NCBI GenBank assembly: GCA_003175985.1
Contig: PSRJ01000239.1
Location: 1-47,615, forward strand
DNA length: 47,615 nucleotides
Source of the DNA: Terriglobia bacterium
GTDB taxonomy: Bacteria > Acidobacteriota > Terriglobia > Bryobacterales > Bryobacteraceae
Direction of reading: 5' to 3'
Numbering within the stretch: the first letter of the stretch is position 1; each line of letters starts with the position of its first letter. Of this stretch, positions 18,256 to 26,495 are shown one piece after another. The notes beneath the pieces are model-generated. The model searched no databases. It was not told where the DNA came from and saw nothing but the letters and a program-made list of their open reading frames with translations. The translations under genes and the position numbers were made by a program.

Positions 18256-20532
18256 GTGGTCCGAACCACTGTTCTTCTTAGCATCCTTCTGACGCTCGTT
18301 TCCTGCGCTTCCTCGCCCGAACACTACGTGGCGCGAGGCAATCAGCTCAGTGAAAGCGGCAGGTACGCCGATGCCTCGTTGCAGTACCGGAAGGCTCTCC
18401 AAAAGAACCCGCAATTCGGTGAGGCGTATTTCCGATTGGGTTTAACCGAATTGAAGCAGCAACAGGTCGCGGCGGCCATGAGGGACCTCGAGCAAGCCGT
18501 CCGGTTGATGCCGGGCCGGGATGACGTCAAGCTACACCTGGCGGATCTCTATCTTACGGCCTACCTGGCAGACAGGAGCCGGCCTCGCAGCCTGTACGAT
18601 CGGATCGCCGCTTTAGCCGGCGAACTGGCCGCGAAAAACGCGAATTCTTATGCGGCGCTGCGTCTCAAGGGATTCTTGGCCATGACGGATGCGCAGCCGG
18701 AGCAGGCGGCGGCCCTCTTCCGCCAATCGCTTACCCTCCGAGCCGAACAACCCGACGTGGTAACTGCCCTCGTTCAGAATCTGTTGCTCAGCCAGCATCC
18801 GGAGGAAGCCGAAAGCACCGCCCGGGCGTTTCTGGAATCGCACAAGACGTACGAGCCGCTTTACGACGTACTTTATGATCACTATCGCACCTGGAATCGG
18901 ATAACCGATGCGGAAAACCTTCTGCGGGCAAAGGTCGCTAACAATCCCCGGGATATCTTTCCCGTGCTGCAATTGAGCCGTCATTACTGGAACGAGGGCC
19001 GGAGCGATCTGATGGAGAAGCTGCTCTCCACGGTGCGGGAGCAGCCACAGCTTTTCCAAAGCGTGCACCTCGAACTGGGCGACTTTTACAGCGAGATCCG
19101 AAATTGGGATGCGGCTGCGCGGCAGTATCGGGAGGGCGCCGCCCAGGCGCCCGCCGAGGCACTGGTCTATCAAAAGCGAATCGCGCAAACGTTGATCGCA
19201 CAACAGAAGACCGGCGAGGCTTTGCAGCTTCTGGATGAGATCATCCGCCGCAGCCCGGAAGATGAACCGGCGCGCGCTTCCCGCGTGGGGTTGTGGTTGG
19301 GCGACGGGCAAACGGGCAGTGTCGAGAAGGCCGTTTCCGAGTTGAAGAAGCTTCTGGAAAAGGCTCCCGATAACACGAACTATCACTATCAACTGGGATA
19401 CGCTTACGCGCGCCAGGACGCCGTGCGGGAGGCTTCCGCTCAATTTCTGGCGGTCCTCACCCGGCAACCGAATCATATGGGCGCCCTGGTCGGCCTCGCT
19501 GAAATGAACATTCGCACGCAACAATACCAGGTGGCCATGAGCTATGCGGATCGTGCATTGCAGTTGAACCCTCAGGCCACTGCGGCACTGCTGGTTCGGT
19601 CGGCCAGCCTGGCTGCTTTCGGCCGCTACGACGAGACACGTTCGCTGCTCAACAAACTGATTCACGACAATCCGCAATCGCAAGAGGCCCGGCTCCAGCT
19701 CGGATTGCTGAATCTGGCGCAGAGGCGTTACGCAGAGGCAGAAGACATCTTTCACAACTACCGGCCGCAGTCCGGCGATATACGGGCAATCAAAGGGCTC
19801 GTCGAGATTTACAAAGCTCAGAACCGGCCGGGCAAAGCCATTGCGGCAATCCAGGAGGAACTGAGCAGAAATCCGCAGTCGGCCGGTTTGCACCTGCTTC
19901 TGGCGGCGACCGCGGCCGATATCGGCAATCGCGATCTTGCGGCGGCGGAGTATGAGAAGATCGCAGCCGCCGCGCCGGGCGACGCCAATGTCGCTTTATC
20001 TCTGGGCCAGATCTACGAAGGCAAGGGGGACTTTAACCGGGCCGTCCAGCAGTTCGAGAGAGCCGAAAAGAACCGGCCGCGGGATCCATCGCCTCCCGCC
20101 TTGCTTGCAAGAACTCTGGACGAGGCCGGCCGTAAGCGCGAAGCTGTAGCGGCTTACCGCAGAAGCCTGGCCGCCAAACCGGACAGCCCGGTCGTCAAGA
20201 ACAATCTGGCATACCTGCTGAGTGAAACCGGCGGCAGCCTTGACGAGGCCCTCCGATTAGCCGTGGAAGCGCGCCAGAGCGATCCGGAGAACGTGCTTTT
20301 CGCCGATACGATGGCATGGATCCAGTTGCAAAGAAAAGAAACAGTGCCGGCACTGCAAACACTGCAAGCCCTGGTCCGCAAGCAGCCCGATAACGCGACT
20401 TTGCGTCTGCATCTGGGCCAGTCGCTTATAGCTGCCGGCCAGGCGGAGGCAGCCAGGAAGGAGCTCCAGGCCGCACTCGATGCCCAGCCATCGCGCGAGG
20501 AAACCGCGGAAATTCAGCGCCTCTTGAAGTAG
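18256..20532 (+). CDS. TPR-repeat lipoprotein, exosortase/PEP-CTERM associated (copy 1)
   Basis: 758 residues. The N-terminus is a lipoprotein signal (hydrophobic segment ending LTLVSC, lipidated Cys17), followed by TPR units almost to the end (for example GRYADASLQYRKALQKNP, RYAEAEDIFHNY, GDFNRAVQQFERAEKNRP). Such long TPR lipoproteins (PrsT-like) accompany exosortase and exopolysaccharide loci and probably scaffold export at the periplasmic face. The start is GTG at 18256 with only a weak ribosome site. A -10-like TAAAAT at 18241-18246 would give a very short leader. A PEP-CTERM gene lies 111 bases downstream. The first 200 residues are clearly homologous to the gene at 27403, which also precedes a PEP-CTERM gene. 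Confidence 0.88.
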   Translation: MVRTTVLLSILLTLVSCASSPEHYVARGNQLSESGRYADASLQYRKALQKNPQFGEAYFRLGLTELKQQQVAAAMRDLEQAVRLMPGRDDVKLHLADLYLTAYLADRSRPRSLYDRIAALAGELAAKNANSYAALRLKGFLAMTDAQPEQAAALFRQSLTLRAEQPDVVTALVQNLLLSQHPEEAESTARAFLESHKTYEPLYDVLYDHYRTWNRITDAENLLRAKVANNPRDIFPVLQLSRHYWNEGRSDLMEKLLSTVREQPQLFQSVHLELGDFYSEIRNWDAAARQYREGAAQAPAEALVYQKRIAQTLIAQQKTGEALQLLDEIIRRSPEDEPARASRVGLWLGDGQTGSVEKAVSELKKLLEKAPDNTNYHYQLGYAYARQDAVREASAQFLAVLTRQPNHMGALVGLAEMNIRTQQYQVAMSYADRALQLNPQATAALLVRSASLAAFGRYDETRSLLNKLIHDNPQSQEARLQLGLLNLAQRRYAEAEDIFHNYRPQSGDIRAIKGLVEIYKAQNRPGKAIAAIQEELSRNPQSAGLHLLLAATAADIGNRDLAAAEYEKIAAAAPGDANVALSLGQIYEGKGDFNRAVQQFERAEKNRPRDPSPPALLARTLDEAGRKREAVAAYRRSLAAKPDSPVVKNNLAYLLSETGGSLDEALRLAVEARQSDPENVLFADTMAWIQLQRKETVPALQTLQALVRKQPDNATLRLHLGQSLIAAGQAEAARKELQAALDAQPSREETAEIQRLLK

Positions 20533-20643: not shown

Positions 20644-21492
20644 ATGAAACTATCCAGGGTAGTGTACGTCTTCCTCGCGCTCACACTGGCAGCGGCGGCA
20701 TTTGGTGCGCCCGCCCCGCTTCCTACGAATCTCCTGGGTGTTCAGACCATCAACAACATACAACTGCCGAATCCAATCTGTATCTCCGGTGAATGCGGAG
20801 GCGCATTCCAGGCGGGTGTCGGCGGCGCCTCTCCACTGGCTACTTTATGGTGCGTCGATTCGCAGGAATTCGTTTCCCTGGGTCAGACATACACCGCCAA
20901 TATTGTGCTTCTCAGTGACAGCACCAAAATGGGAGACGGTACCCAGGTCCGTTACGGGAACGTCACGGGCAATGCAGGCAATACCAGCCAGACCGACGCC
21001 AGCCCCGGCAACTGGGACTTCGATATCCACGACGCGTTTAACAGTTACAACACGGCGCTCAGCCGCTACACTCTCGCGGCGTTCCTGATTAGCCAGTACA
21101 CGCCTACGCCGCAGGGACCAGCCGATACTGCGCAGAACGAGGCGATCCAGCGCGCGGTGTGGAGAATCATGTCCAACACCAATGCCCACCTGGCCGCGCA
21201 AATCAACACCGGCTTGAATCTGGGAGGCGGCGATATTTCGACAGGCGTACCCGCCAACGGCAACTGGGTCGCATATGCGGAAGCTCAGTTGCACGCCAAT
21301 CCCAACCTGATCAATCTGAATGGATGGGCCGTGGTCAGCGGCGCTTACGCAAACGGAAATTTGCTCAACGGAGCTAATGCCATCCAGACGTACCTGGTGC
21401 AGGTAGCAGTGCCGGTGCCGGAACCGGGCTTCTTTGCCCTTTTGGCGCTGGGCGTGGCCGGTGTCGTGACAAAAGCACGGCGGCGAAAGTAA
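20644..21492 (+). CDS. PEP-CTERM exported protein with thioester-domain-like Cys/Gln signature
   Basis: 282 residues. The signal peptide covers 1-21. The C-terminus has the PEP-CTERM sorting signal: VPEP (258-261), a hydrophobic helix, then KARRRK. Exosortase would cut near the PEP motif and anchor or release the protein. In the body, LWCVDSQ (Cys70) and AIQRAVW (Gln169) match the two halves of the internal thioester signature of bacterial thioester (TIE/TED, PF08341-like) adhesins, [FYW]C[IV]D and Q-x-A-[IV]-W, in the right order and about 100 residues apart. If a bond forms, the protein could attach covalently to surfaces. A GGAG ribosome site precedes the ATG. No exosortase gene lies in the window. 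Confidence 0.87.
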   Translation: MKLSRVVYVFLALTLAAAAFGAPAPLPTNLLGVQTINNIQLPNPICISGECGGAFQAGVGGASPLATLWCVDSQEFVSLGQTYTANIVLLSDSTKMGDGTQVRYGNVTGNAGNTSQTDASPGNWDFDIHDAFNSYNTALSRYTLAAFLISQYTPTPQGPADTAQNEAIQRAVWRIMSNTNAHLAAQINTGLNLGGGDISTGVPANGNWVAYAEAQLHANPNLINLNGWAVVSGAYANGNLLNGANAIQTYLVQVAVPVPEPGFFALLALGVAGVVTKARRRK

Positions 21493-21631
21493 GCCGAGTT
21501 TTCGCGCTCGTTGCCAAAGGATACCGCGGCAACACTAACCTTTAGCAATTGGAACGACCCTTCCGAAAATCCTAGGATGATAGTGTTGCGCCCGCCGGCG
21601 CAGCTAGGTCTTTTGCGAAGCGAGGTCGTTG

Positions 21632-22414
21632 ATGGAGCTCATTCTCATCCTTTTGTGTACATCGGCTGGCACCTTGATCGGTACGTCCGTTGCAGTCTAT
21701 TTGATGCAGCGCAAAACGAAGCCGCCGATTACGGATGCCGAGCTGGCCACTTTGAACGGCAGGCTGCAATCGACAGAGTCGTCTCTCGCCGCGGCCAATA
21801 CCGCCTTGGAAAGCCTGCGCAAACAGGCGGCAGAGAACGAACAAAAGACCACACTTCACGAAGAAGACTTGAAGAACAAGCAACAGCAGCTTGAGCTTGC
21901 CGCTGCCGAAGTCGCGAAGGAAGTTGAAAAGCGAAACGAGGTCGAGCAGAAGATACAGGATCTCACTCTACACGCGGCCAGCTTGACGGCGCAGCGCGCC
22001 GAGTTGGAAGCGCGCATAAAAGAGGAAAGAGATCGTTCGGCCGAAACGGCCAGCCAGTTCGCGGCCCTCCAGGAGCAACGCGAAAGCGATCAACAGCAAA
22101 TCCAGAAGTTGAGCGAGCAGGTGGAGCGCCTCAGCGAAGAAAATGGCGAACTGCGGCAAGTCCGCGAGGAAGACGGGCGAATCCGCGCCGCGCTCGACAC
22201 CCGGATGGCGGAGTTGCAGCGCCAGATAACCGATCTGGAAAACGAACGCTCGCAATTCGACACACGTCTGGATGAAGAAAGAAGATCCGCTGCGAAAGGC
22301 ATGGAGCTCCTGCTGATGGCTCAAGAGAACTTCTCGCGAGTGCTCAAGCCGCGTGCAGCGGAGACATCCAACGGGGAGAACGGACATGCGATCGCCCCGG
22401 CACTCGCCGATTAG
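21632..22414 (+). CDS. Membrane-anchored long coiled-coil protein
   Basis: 260 residues. An N-terminal transmembrane helix (about 3-24, ending YLMQRK) is followed by an almost continuous charged coiled coil from about 40 to 225 (heptads rich in Glu, Gln, Lys, Arg, Leu). The short C-terminal tail is polar. The N-terminal anchor plus coiled coil recalls the start of RmuC, but the RmuC nuclease-like domain is absent, so I do not call it that. The ATG at 21632 is preferred over the adjacent in-frame TTG because the GAGG ribosome site is better spaced. It sits between the PEP-CTERM gene and a small convergent helical gene. Function is unknown; a structural or envelope-spacing role is possible. Confidence 0.8.
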   Translation: MELILILLCTSAGTLIGTSVAVYLMQRKTKPPITDAELATLNGRLQSTESSLAAANTALESLRKQAAENEQKTTLHEEDLKNKQQQLELAAAEVAKEVEKRNEVEQKIQDLTLHAASLTAQRAELEARIKEERDRSAETASQFAALQEQRESDQQQIQKLSEQVERLSEENGELRQVREEDGRIRAALDTRMAELQRQITDLENERSQFDTRLDEERRSAAKGMELLLMAQENFSRVLKPRAAETSNGENGHAIAPALAD

Positions 22415-22802: not shown

Positions 22803-25800
22803 TCAAAAGACAAAACGCGCGATCAGCGTGCCGTTGCGGGGCACCTGCGCCCCGGTAAACCCTGGGGTTATCGTGTTCATGAACCCGAAACCGGAGGCGG
22901 CGCCGCCACTAGGTGTGCGAGTTTGCGGGGCCTTGGCATTGGTGAAAGCGGGATTCCCCCAGTACGCGCGGTTGAACACGTTGGTCAACTCGAAACGAAT
23001 GTTCAGCGTCATCTTTTCGGTAAAACGCCAGGTGCGGCCGAGGTTGATATTCTCGCCCGGACGGCGCTGTGTCCGGTAATCGGAATAGTAGGCCGCCGAC
23101 GATCCAAACTGGCCGGCTAAAGGATCGGTCCATGCCGCCGGATTCAGGAGGAATGTCTTATTGGGGTCGTAGCAGTGGCAGTTCGGGTCCACTGTGAACA
23201 GAGGCTGGCCCGGTACGCGATTGGCGAAGGTGCCGGTAGAGGACACGTTGCCTGGGATCGCATTGAGCAGCGCCGCGTTGAGATTATTGTTGGCGAACGG
23301 CACTTGAATCGGGAACCCGCTGGAATATTGCAGGAACGCGCCGAGCGTCCAGTCGCGCGCCAACCACGAGGCAACCTTATTGATTTTGATAACCGGGGTC
23401 ACATACGTCAGCGAGATGTTGAACAGGAACGGCTGATCGAACGATGACAGATACTTATTGTTTTTACGGTTAAAGACGTCGTTGACGACCGCATTGCCGG
23501 TTGTGCCCGGGTTCGGCTCGCCGATTTCCGTGCCGCTTGCCAGATTCTTCTGCCAGGTAAACGTGCTGACGAACGCGAGCCCGTGAGAAAGCCTCTTGGT
23601 GGCCTTCACCTGCAATGCGTTGTACCACGTATCGCCCAGCGGATCCCAATAAGCGTTGATCGTAGTGAATTGCGGGAAAGGCCGCAGCGATTGCGCCAGC
23701 GACTGGCCCATCGGGAAGCCCGGATACGGCGCCCTGCTGAGGCCGCGTGCGACGACTTGCGGCGAACTGAGCGCCAGCGGCAGCAGGGCCGCATCGGCCG
23801 GGTTGTTGATATCGAGGCCGACCGCGGCCAAACGGGAGGCCGGAATAGCGTTCAGGTTGAGCAAGGCCGGCGCCTGCCACCAGATTCCCCGATTGCCGAC
23901 ATAGGTAGCCTCCAGGGCGAGGTTGTGGAAGATTTCCCGCTGCAGGCCGACGCTCCACTGATATTGGCGCGGCGGGCGTCCGGCGTTCGGATCAACAAAC
24001 GGCTGCCCGGCGATGCTGACCGGCGTCGTCGTGGTGTTGAACTGGCCTGGATTCAGGTTCGGCCATGGCGCGGGATTGAAGGATGCGGGAATACCGGTTG
24101 CCAACGTCGTGACGGCAGCGCCAAAGCTCGCGGCGGTAACAGTGTTGGAAGATCCCGCCAAGCCGCCGGAAGCATTATTGTTCGATTCCGTGCTGCCGTA
24201 GATAATGCCGAAGCCGCCGCGGAATACCGTCTTGGAGTTGATCTGGTACGCGATTCCCAACCGCGGCCCGAAAGCCCACGGATAGTTCTTCGCGAGGTAG
24301 CAGTTGCAGTGACCCGGGCCGTGGCCATCGAAGATCATCGCTCCCGGAATATTGCCAACCGCCGGGTTGAGCGTCGTTGGGGAGAAGAACGGGTCGCGCC
24401 CATGCTCTTCCTGCAGATAGGTCGAGTAATCGTAGCGCAGACCATAATCGAACGTCAGTTTGCGCGTAATCTTCCAGGAATCCTGTGCGTAAAAACCGAG
24501 CTGGTGTTTTCCAAGGCGCGGATCCACCGGATTGGAGACGCTCACCGTCTTTACGAGCCCGAGCAAAAAACTGGCGTACGCAAATCCCGGCAACTGGCCC
24601 TGCAAGCTCTGGCCATTGAGGTATGGAAGGCTGGTCTGGTCCGGCGCGAACACATAACTTCCCGAAGTACCCGACTTCACGTGTGCGGGATAGCCTTCAA
24701 ACCGCGCTTCGCCTCCGAATTTGTAGGTGTGATTGTTCTTCACCCACGTCAGGCTGGCATTGAACGACGGCACCTGTGTATTTGCCGAGCTATACGCCGA
24801 GTTGCCGAAATTCTGCATTCCCCCCTGTCCTGTGCAAACGTAGGGCGTAAAGGGACCAGGGCCAGTGCACAACCCGGTAAAGGGCGGAAAGAACTGGTGC
24901 GTCGTGCCGCCGTGGAGACCCAATTCCGCCTCGGCATTATAGTTGGGAACCTGGCCTTCCTCGTTGACCGCGGGAACGAAAAACTCATTACTGCGATAGC
25001 CGGCGCCAAAATGCGCGAGCAACGTTGGCGACAGCGTATGGTCATAGTTCAACCGGTAGACCGGAGCATGCTGAAACGTGCCGTTATTGGTGGGCAGTGG
25101 GTCGGGCAAGCCGTCCACCTGCCCGAAGGTGAAGGACAGTGGCGCCGTTGTTTTCGTATTCTGCCAGAAGAAGGACAGCTTCCCTTTCGATCCCAACAGC
25201 TCGTCGATCTTCACGGATGGGATCTGCGTCACACGCGTTGTGGGGATATTCGGGACGTAGTTATTGACTACGGCATTCGCGTTTGGCCCCAGCGGCTGCG
25301 GGAACAGGTTCTGAATCTTGACGGCGACCGGATCGAACATGGTTTGCGGGATGACCTGATTCGCGAACGGATCGCGAACCACTTGGCCGTTCACCGTCCG
25401 CGTGGTGCTGGGATCGTAGATCTGACCGGCATAAATCGGCCGCGTTAGAGGGTCAGTGCCGATGGGGTTGGCGCCCGGCGGAATCGAGGTGGCGAAATTG
25501 CCCTGCCGGTAAGCCAGCGTCGGGACGGTTTCCAATTGGTTGTTAATGGCTACAGCTTCGCGATACTGCTCCCAGTTGAAGAAGAAGAAGGTCTTGTCAT
25601 GACCGTTGTACACTTTCGGAATCCACACCGGGCCGCCGATCGTGAACCCGTAATCGTTGCGGCGATTGCGCGCCCTGGGATTGCCGGGGATGAACGGCTG
25701 GCCCGCGTTGAAGGCTTCATTGACGAAATGCTCGTATGCCGTCCCGTGGAACTGATTGGTGCCCGATTTCATCGTGACATTGAACATGCCGCCGCCCGCC

Positions 25801-26495
25801 TGGCCGTATTCCGCCGCGTAATTGCTGGTCTGGATAGCGACTTCCTCGATGGCATCGACGCTGGGCTGCGTCTGCGCCTGCACGCCGGGAGTGCCGGTAT
25901 TGGATGCGTCCTGCCCTTCGATGCGAAACGACTGCGTGTTGTTCGGCGCGCCATTGATGCGGACCTGGGCGTTGGCCTGCCACATGGTCCCCGGAATCAA
26001 CTGGACCATGGCATAGGGATTGCGGATCCCGGCGCTTCCCGCCTGACCGGCGCCGATGCCCAGAATCGGCAGATCATCCATATTGTTGGCCCTGATGCTG
26101 TGGCTGATATCGCCGGTTTCGGTGCGCAACAGCGGAGCATCGGCCTGTACGGTAACCGACTCGGTGGCGCCACCAACTTCGAGCGGGATATCGATGCGTA
26201 ACACCTGCGCCACCTCGACCATGATTCCCTGGCGCACGTATTTCTTGAAGCCGGGAACCGAGACGGACACTTCGTATTGCCCGACCGGCAACTGCGGGAT
26301 CGTATAGTTGCCGGTGGCGGTGGTAGCCGCGGAATAGACCAGGCCGGTAGCCTGGTTCCTGGCTTCGATAGCGGCATTGGCGACCACAGCACCCGCCGGA
26401 TCGGAAACCGTGCCCGTGATGGTACCGCGATCGCTCTGGGCAAACGCGGCGCAGGCGGCCAGAAACGCGAAGACAACACCTGTAAACAATCGCAT
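22803..26495 (-). CDS. TonB-dependent receptor, Oar-like with carboxypeptidase-regulatory domain
   Basis: 1230-residue outer-membrane protein of the kind greatly expanded in Solibacter-type Acidobacteriota. A signal peptide (1-19) precedes a carboxypeptidase-regulatory-like beta sandwich (about 23-110: RGTITGTVSDPAGAVV, then NYTIPQLPVGQYEVSV). The plug domain follows (about 125-245, with ATESVTVQADAPLL and the GQAGGGMFNVTMKSG segment), then a long beta barrel ending in the aromatic ARFVF, as needed for barrel insertion. Such receptors import large ligands, perhaps oligosaccharides or peptides; the ligand is unknown. A GAGGGG ribosome site and a candidate promoter lie upstream. It sits between the two TPR/PEP-CTERM modules. 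Confidence 0.95.
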   Translation of the reverse strand: MRLFTGVVFAFLAACAAFAQSDRGTITGTVSDPAGAVVANAAIEARNQATGLVYSAATTATGNYTIPQLPVGQYEVSVSVPGFKKYVRQGIMVEVAQVLRIDIPLEVGGATESVTVQADAPLLRTETGDISHSIRANNMDDLPILGIGAGQAGSAGIRNPYAMVQLIPGTMWQANAQVRINGAPNNTQSFRIEGQDASNTGTPGVQAQTQPSVDAIEEVAIQTSNYAAEYGQAGGGMFNVTMKSGTNQFHGTAYEHFVNEAFNAGQPFIPGNPRARNRRNDYGFTIGGPVWIPKVYNGHDKTFFFFNWEQYREAVAINNQLETVPTLAYRQGNFATSIPPGANPIGTDPLTRPIYAGQIYDPSTTRTVNGQVVRDPFANQVIPQTMFDPVAVKIQNLFPQPLGPNANAVVNNYVPNIPTTRVTQIPSVKIDELLGSKGKLSFFWQNTKTTAPLSFTFGQVDGLPDPLPTNNGTFQHAPVYRLNYDHTLSPTLLAHFGAGYRSNEFFVPAVNEEGQVPNYNAEAELGLHGGTTHQFFPPFTGLCTGPGPFTPYVCTGQGGMQNFGNSAYSSANTQVPSFNASLTWVKNNHTYKFGGEARFEGYPAHVKSGTSGSYVFAPDQTSLPYLNGQSLQGQLPGFAYASFLLGLVKTVSVSNPVDPRLGKHQLGFYAQDSWKITRKLTFDYGLRYDYSTYLQEEHGRDPFFSPTTLNPAVGNIPGAMIFDGHGPGHCNCYLAKNYPWAFGPRLGIAYQINSKTVFRGGFGIIYGSTESNNNASGGLAGSSNTVTAASFGAAVTTLATGIPASFNPAPWPNLNPGQFNTTTTPVSIAGQPFVDPNAGRPPRQYQWSVGLQREIFHNLALEATYVGNRGIWWQAPALLNLNAIPASRLAAVGLDINNPADAALLPLALSSPQVVARGLSRAPYPGFPMGQSLAQSLRPFPQFTTINAYWDPLGDTWYNALQVKATKRLSHGLAFVSTFTWQKNLASGTEIGEPNPGTTGNAVVNDVFNRKNNKYLSSFDQPFLFNISLTYVTPVIKINKVASWLARDWTLGAFLQYSSGFPIQVPFANNNLNAALLNAIPGNVSSTGTFANRVPGQPLFTVDPNCHCYDPNKTFLLNPAAWTDPLAGQFGSSAAYYSDYRTQRRPGENINLGRTWRFTEKMTLNIRFELTNVFNRAYWGNPAFTNAKAPQTRTPSGGAASGFGFMNTITPGFTGAQVPRNGTLIARFVF

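Follow-up and report, generated by a model that had tools for sequence, protein, structure and literature searches.

A putative class I-like thioester domain joined to a PEP-CTERM sorting signal in Acidobacteriota

Introduction

Acidobacteriota have a Gram-negative-type (diderm) envelope, and to our knowledge most PEP-CTERM proteins have no known molecular function. Could one such protein from this phylum carry an internal thioester, and if so, which two residues would form it? The question is raised by a gene in a stretch of 47,615 nucleotides from a Terriglobia bacterium of the Bryobacteraceae (contig PSRJ01000239.1; the whole stretch is called the window here). A preliminary description of the locus had taken the gene product for a PEP-CTERM protein with a thioester-adhesin signature, the bond being formed by Cys70 and Gln169. 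The first survey of thioester domains (TEDs) found matches in Gram-positive bacteria only (PMC4450167), and a later survey of adhesins reported TEDs from Firmicutes and Actinobacteria, combined with SpaA stalks. Our search of the literature found no paper that combines thioester domains with PEP-CTERM. We argue here that the product is quite probably a secreted class I-like thioester domain processed by exosortase, with a bond between Cys70 and Gln248, the latter capturing a nucleophile.

The gene and its product

The gene is an open reading frame closed by a stop (20644-21492, forward strand) that encodes 282 amino acids. The reading frame is genuine: it starts with ATG, has GGAG 5′ of the start, shows a GC3 of 0.69 similar to that of its neighbors, and has full-length in-frame relatives in other genomes. 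All features of the protein given below are on the same strand. By inspection, residues 1-21 (20644-20706) form a signal peptide (MKLSRVVYVFLALTLAAAAFG-AP), and the predicted structure has a helix at residues 3-19. At the other end, residues 257-280 (21412-21483) form a PEP-CTERM sorting signal, as was first claimed; PF07589 scores 23.9 bits there against a Pfam cut-off of 20.7, and the PEP motif, hydrophobic segment and basic tail are all present, together with the signal peptide.

The two residues of the original proposal are where they were said to be, Cys70 (20851-20853) in LWCVDSQ and Gln169 in AIQRAVW. The protein has two more cysteines, Cys46 and Cys51. Another glutamine, Gln248 (21385-21387), lies eleven residues ahead of the PEP motif.

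The proposed bond-forming glutamine

The preliminary description read LWCVDSQ and AIQRAVW as the Cys and Gln halves of a thioester domain. In TEDs, however, just two residues are universal, and each lies in a beta strand: the Cys of a [YFL]C-Phi-z motif and the Gln of PhiQzPhiPhi, a weak motif; in the solved structures the bond-forming Gln is that of PhiQzPhiPhi in the C-terminal strand (PMC4450167, PMC6194298). TQxxPhiW, a motif earlier written TQxA(I/V)W, is distinct from these and alpha-helical, and its Gln and Trp are dispensable for the bond; mutagenesis found its Gln not to be essential (PMC4450167, PMC6194298). AIQRAVW is of this second type, with Ile in place of Thr, and since it matches a non-bonding helix motif the Cys70-Gln169 pair was rejected. 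The motif, usual but not universal in TEDs, lies on the predicted helix 2 (residues 163-176; 21130-21171), which carries both Gln169 and Trp173. The features expected of the bonding residues are found elsewhere: LWCVD ends a predicted beta strand (residues 66-70), and Gln248 belongs to IQTYL, a PhiQzPhiPhi sequence at the predicted C-terminal strand (residues 250-254).

The spacing argument, too, has to be revised. The bond pairs of solved class I TEDs are Cys109-Gln261, Cys94-Gln247 and Cys138-Gln267 (PMC4450167), 129-153 residues apart, as against 99 residues from Cys70 to Gln169, a distance first said to fit the known domains. Cys70 and Gln248 are 178 residues apart, and the median from Cys to the C-terminal Gln in the family is 134 in a class-wide set and 145 in a set of 65 proteins.

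Conservation was followed in three alignments, of five proteins, of 65 from the same family of genomes, and of 139 full-length members across the class. Cys70, Gln169, Trp173 and Gln248 are invariant in the smallest at 25-39% identity. Among the 65, the Cys is kept in 64, the helix Gln in 59 and the C-terminal Gln in all. Among the 139 acidobacterial relatives, most of them 20-35% identical, the corresponding counts are 137, 111 and 138, and the Trp is present in every one. The 28 departures in the helix Gln column are mainly Ser (14) and Asn (11), the rest including His, Ala and Ile. Substitution of the helix Gln in relatives, together with the identity of the motif, speaks strongly against Cys70-Gln169 as the bond. 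Judged from these alignments, the family ranking, with the Cys and the C-terminal Gln the most constant, is the same as reported for known TEDs, and the thioester Gln is most likely Gln248 (A-I-Q248-T-Y-L, just ahead of the PEP signal) and not Gln169. Of the preliminary description, the combination of a TED-like domain with PEP-CTERM is supported, in a diderm bacterium with exosortases in its genome; the choice of partner for Cys70 is not.

The context of the two residues varies within limits. In the 139 relatives the PhiQzPhiPhi motif has a hydrophobic residue at +2 in 135 and at +3 in all. The residue before the Cys is Trp in the window protein and F, W, M, Y or I among relatives; the one after it is Asp in 58 of the 139, which is outside the [YFL]C-Phi-z consensus. 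Taken together, the Cys, the helix Trp and the C-terminal Gln at set spacing occur in 126 of 150 family members, as against 5 of 7500 shuffles of these members, so the co-occurrence is not due to chance. The same test was passed by 5 of 1132 other open reading frames, all five coding for related PEP-CTERM proteins.

Two natural variants bear on the pair. One genome has three TED-like genes in tandem, the third of which (L103:2563-3288, reverse strand; G639 C1) has Gly for the Cys and Glu for the C-terminal Gln, with the Trp helix kept. Such joint loss points to the two residues acting as a pair, as far as sequence can tell, although a single case is an anecdote and not a statistic. In another genome (L050:2023-2835, forward strand; G186) the Gln is kept with Thr at the Cys position; four congeners keep the Cys.

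The predicted fold

An AlphaFold2 model of the window protein was built from the 65-row alignment (pLDDT 81.4, pTM 0.80). The model shows, in order, the Cys strand (66-70), a strand at 83-89, helix 1 (138-150; 21055-21093), helix 2, helix 3 (208-218; 21265-21297), and strands at 228-233 and 250-254, the last following Gln248. The loops at about 110-137 and 189-205 are poorly modelled. The order of the elements is, in the model, that of class I TEDs.

When the model was compared by Foldseek with 350,542 PDB chains, the five best matches were all to 4c0z, the TED of Cpa (probability 0.84-0.95), and the sixth dropped to E 1.7 and probability 0.01. The core of a compact relative, P0004, gave a better model (pLDDT 88.6, pTM 0.88) and the same answer: the top three matches were all 4c0z (probability 0.99), followed by a fourth with E 1.0 and probability 0.07. 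4c0z was thus the sole credible PDB match of both models. The matches are modest in themselves (E 0.003-0.026, TM 0.36-0.48, rmsd 7-8 Å over the two models). In model terms, 4c0z is a remote match that gains its strength from being exclusive and from the fold having been named beforehand; the low TM and high rmsd would mean either that the arrangement differs from that of 4c0z or that the modelling is imperfect. Other TED entries (5A0G, 5A0L and 5A0N) were absent among the Foldseek matches listed, and a library of viral folds gave no match. On the strength of the models, the window protein very probably folds like the thioester domains of Gram-positive adhesins.

Links to known thioester domains

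Can the relationship also be traced in sequence? The HMM search with PF08341, suggested in the preliminary description as a check, left the window protein unmatched even at E<=10. Its near relatives reach 17.7 bits and below against a cut-off of 22, the E-value obtained being 0.0048. With the PEP tail removed, the Pfam TED model matches 7 of 54 core sequences (best E 0.0085), and no other Pfam family matches more than two of the 54; weak matches to AH_C and gp32 were singletons and were dropped. For one pre-named model out of 24,736, an E of 0.0085 or 0.0048 corresponds roughly to a chance of 2e-7 to 3e-7 per protein, family members not being independent of each other. As a yardstick, the TED of pLS20 scores just 23.6 bits on PF08341 in our hands, and it is a functionally validated domain, its function being abolished by C68S (PMC8092201).

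A further link comes from a second PEP-CTERM subfamily in the same bacteria (CVDLF...QLAIWD...QTLI; L184, L185, L191, L194 and L208-L237), present in 43 of 237 genomes of the family. PF08341 matches 14 of 23 of its members; the best, L184, scores 24.0 bits against the cut-off of 22 and spans positions 1-98 of 102. The Cys and the terminal Gln are near-invariant here also. A profile-profile comparison of the window family, PEP tail removed, with this sister subfamily gave 96.7% and E 4.5e-10, in a register that puts LWCVD on AFCVD and AIQRAVW on AVQLALW. This match links the window protein by homology to proteins that combine the Pfam TED with PEP-CTERM. Because it falls below the Pfam TED cut-off itself, we file it as a divergent relative and not as a member.

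Class II TEDs encoded on Bacillus plasmids, compared by hhalign with the window family, gave no significant similarity. Sequence searches of the PDB turned up no TED, nor did they when the validated pLS20 TED was the query. PF08341 likewise gave no match in the protein's own genome or across 396 acidobacterial genomes; as the control genomes were unmatched too, this is not read as absence, and in eight chosen genomes the model did match.

Comparison with known systems brings out both the likeness and the departures. With class I TEDs (Cpa TED 4c0z; SfbI, FbaB, CpTIE, PnTIE) the window protein shares the predicted Cys strand, three helices and two C-terminal strands, a short link from helix 3 to the next strand, the three motifs in the same order and a Cys-to-Gln spacing of similar size. 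It differs in its Gram-negative-type host, in having PEP-CTERM for LPXTG, in lacking an isopeptide or ester stalk, in a domain that lies directly at the sorting signal, in falling below Pfam detection, and in the Trp before the Cys. Class II TEDs (BaTIE, TIE-pLS20) share the Cys and helix motifs, but they have a beta-sandwich of 75 residues inserted after helix 3, ahead of the C-terminal hairpin, where the window protein has about 10 residues (between helix 208-218 and strand 228-233). TIE proteins have stalk domains and LPXTG; the window protein has neither, its domain running into the PEP-CTERM. Finally, PEP-CTERM substrates such as the flocculation protein PepA (NF033554) share the signal peptide, the PEP-CTERM tail and a genome in which exosortase, EPS and PrsT-like genes are present. 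The likeness of PepA and other PEP-CTERM models to the window family is, however, limited to the tail, for which reason a PepA-type flocculation protein was rejected as a homologue; any one NCBIfam family matches at most one core sequence.

The domain type is a known one. Compared with the papers found, what is new is its carrier, the sorting route, the host group and the architecture, which lacks a stalk; databases may nonetheless already contain some such proteins under automatic annotation.

Genomic context

Upstream of the TED-like gene, and separated from it by 111 bp, is a gene for a PrsT-like TPR lipoprotein with lipobox LVSC (18256-20532, forward strand). Its best NCBIfam model is TIGR02917, the PrsT of the XrtA/PEP-CTERM system, at 248 bits, below the cut-off of 312. 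In 15 fetched loci the TED-like gene has a related TPR gene nearby in the same orientation, directly upstream in eight (27-379 bp) and downstream in the others, and the protein's own genome has a second such pair of TPR and TED-like PEP-CTERM genes (G000 C104, L006:1486-3642). The pairing, seen in sequence, is suggestive only, the TPR similarity being generic. The same genome has three PF09721 matches over the cut-off, two of which are exosortase-EpsI pairs, and one exosortase-EpsI module sits in an exopolysaccharide (EPS) cluster.

Directly downstream in the window (21629-22414, forward strand) is a gene whose coiled-coil product has a hydrophobic segment at its N-terminus and matches no family over cut-off. 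Further on (22803-26495, reverse strand), a protein of 1230 amino acids resembles TonB-dependent/Oar-like outer-membrane receptors, which are common in acidobacteria.

A possible mechanism and its alternatives

How might such a protein work? After export by way of the Sec signal peptide, it would take up the class I-like fold, in which Trp173 and Gln169 of helix 2 may pack against the Cys strand. Cys70 and Gln248 would then form the internal thioester spontaneously, with loss of ammonia, and exosortase would process the PEP-CTERM tail, which comes almost immediately after Gln248. The domain, short and lacking a stalk, would thereby display the reactive Gln248 carbonyl on the outer surface or within the exopolysaccharide matrix. 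A nucleophile, whether an amino sugar or the amine of another protein, could attack this carbonyl and become covalently joined to Gln248. Closure of the thioester, processing by exosortase, the nucleophile and a matrix or adhesive role are all steps that we infer.

The absence of a stalk, with the domain ending at the sorting signal, makes action within or at the EPS layer more plausible than the reaching of a distant host receptor. A role as adhesin is possible; lacking a stalk, the protein is as likely to be a matrix cross-linker. It is conceivable, if somewhat doubtful, that an exosortase-sorted thioester family covalently cross-links the acidobacterial matrix through amines of EPS or of matrix proteins, and not a host receptor. 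Such cross-linking would amount to a self-assembling covalent biofilm glue in diderm soil bacteria. More generally, the thioester reading, if true, would mean that diderm soil bacteria, too, have covalent reactive chemistry at their surface, in a large family of Acidobacteriota exosortase substrates with the complete signature, and would give PEP-CTERM proteins a testable mechanism.

The alternatives differ in what they make of the conserved residues. The domain might have the fold of a TED with no thioester, Cys70 and Gln248 being kept for structure or for binding a metal or ligand, in which case it would be a non-covalent or structural module. The bond is a putative one, the similarity to validated TEDs is weak in sequence, and the L050 protein does keep its Gln opposite a Thr; these points fit that alternative. 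A thioester predicts, however, that a lone exported Cys and a distant Gln should rank among the residues that vary least; their joint loss in one paralogue and the context of the motifs are likewise as it would predict, and we consider a domain of this kind with no thioester improbable.

An altogether different use of Cys70, in redox chemistry or in a disulfide with Cys46 or Cys51, would account for the presence of these cysteines in the window protein. In 108 of the 139 relatives, however, the domain has no other Cys, so that in most of the family no intramolecular disulfide can form, and such a use is very unlikely. Least credible is the thioester between Cys70 and Gln169: both residues are indeed conserved and the likeness to TQxA(I/V)W is genuine, but this helix Gln does not form the bond in solved TEDs (PMC4450167, PMC6194298), and it gives way to Ser, Asn, His, Ala or Ile where the Gln248 column stays constant. 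We therefore prefer the Cys70-Gln248 thioester.

Distribution

Most genomes of the family are matched by a whole-length model of the protein, although many weaker matches are confined to the PEP tail. Of 396 genomes spread over the phylum, 11 match a core-only model (E<=1e-4); of 399 genomes belonging to the class, 109 match a whole-length model made at class level (E<=1e-9), some of them again through the tail only. Tblastn of three relatives against plasmids gave no match, nor did a scan of the contigs of the genome collection with the window protein. With A3 the same scan gave nine loci, each of which seems to be acidobacterial.

Several genomes have TED-like genes in tandem. Within one such array (L020:1486-2325, reverse strand; G128) a TED-like gene is split in two reading frames, as a pseudogene or through an assembly error. 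A contig titled 'Arcobacter sp.' (DYJN01000073.1, L087) carries the same protein as G183, a genome of the window's family, and is probably a mislabelled MAG.
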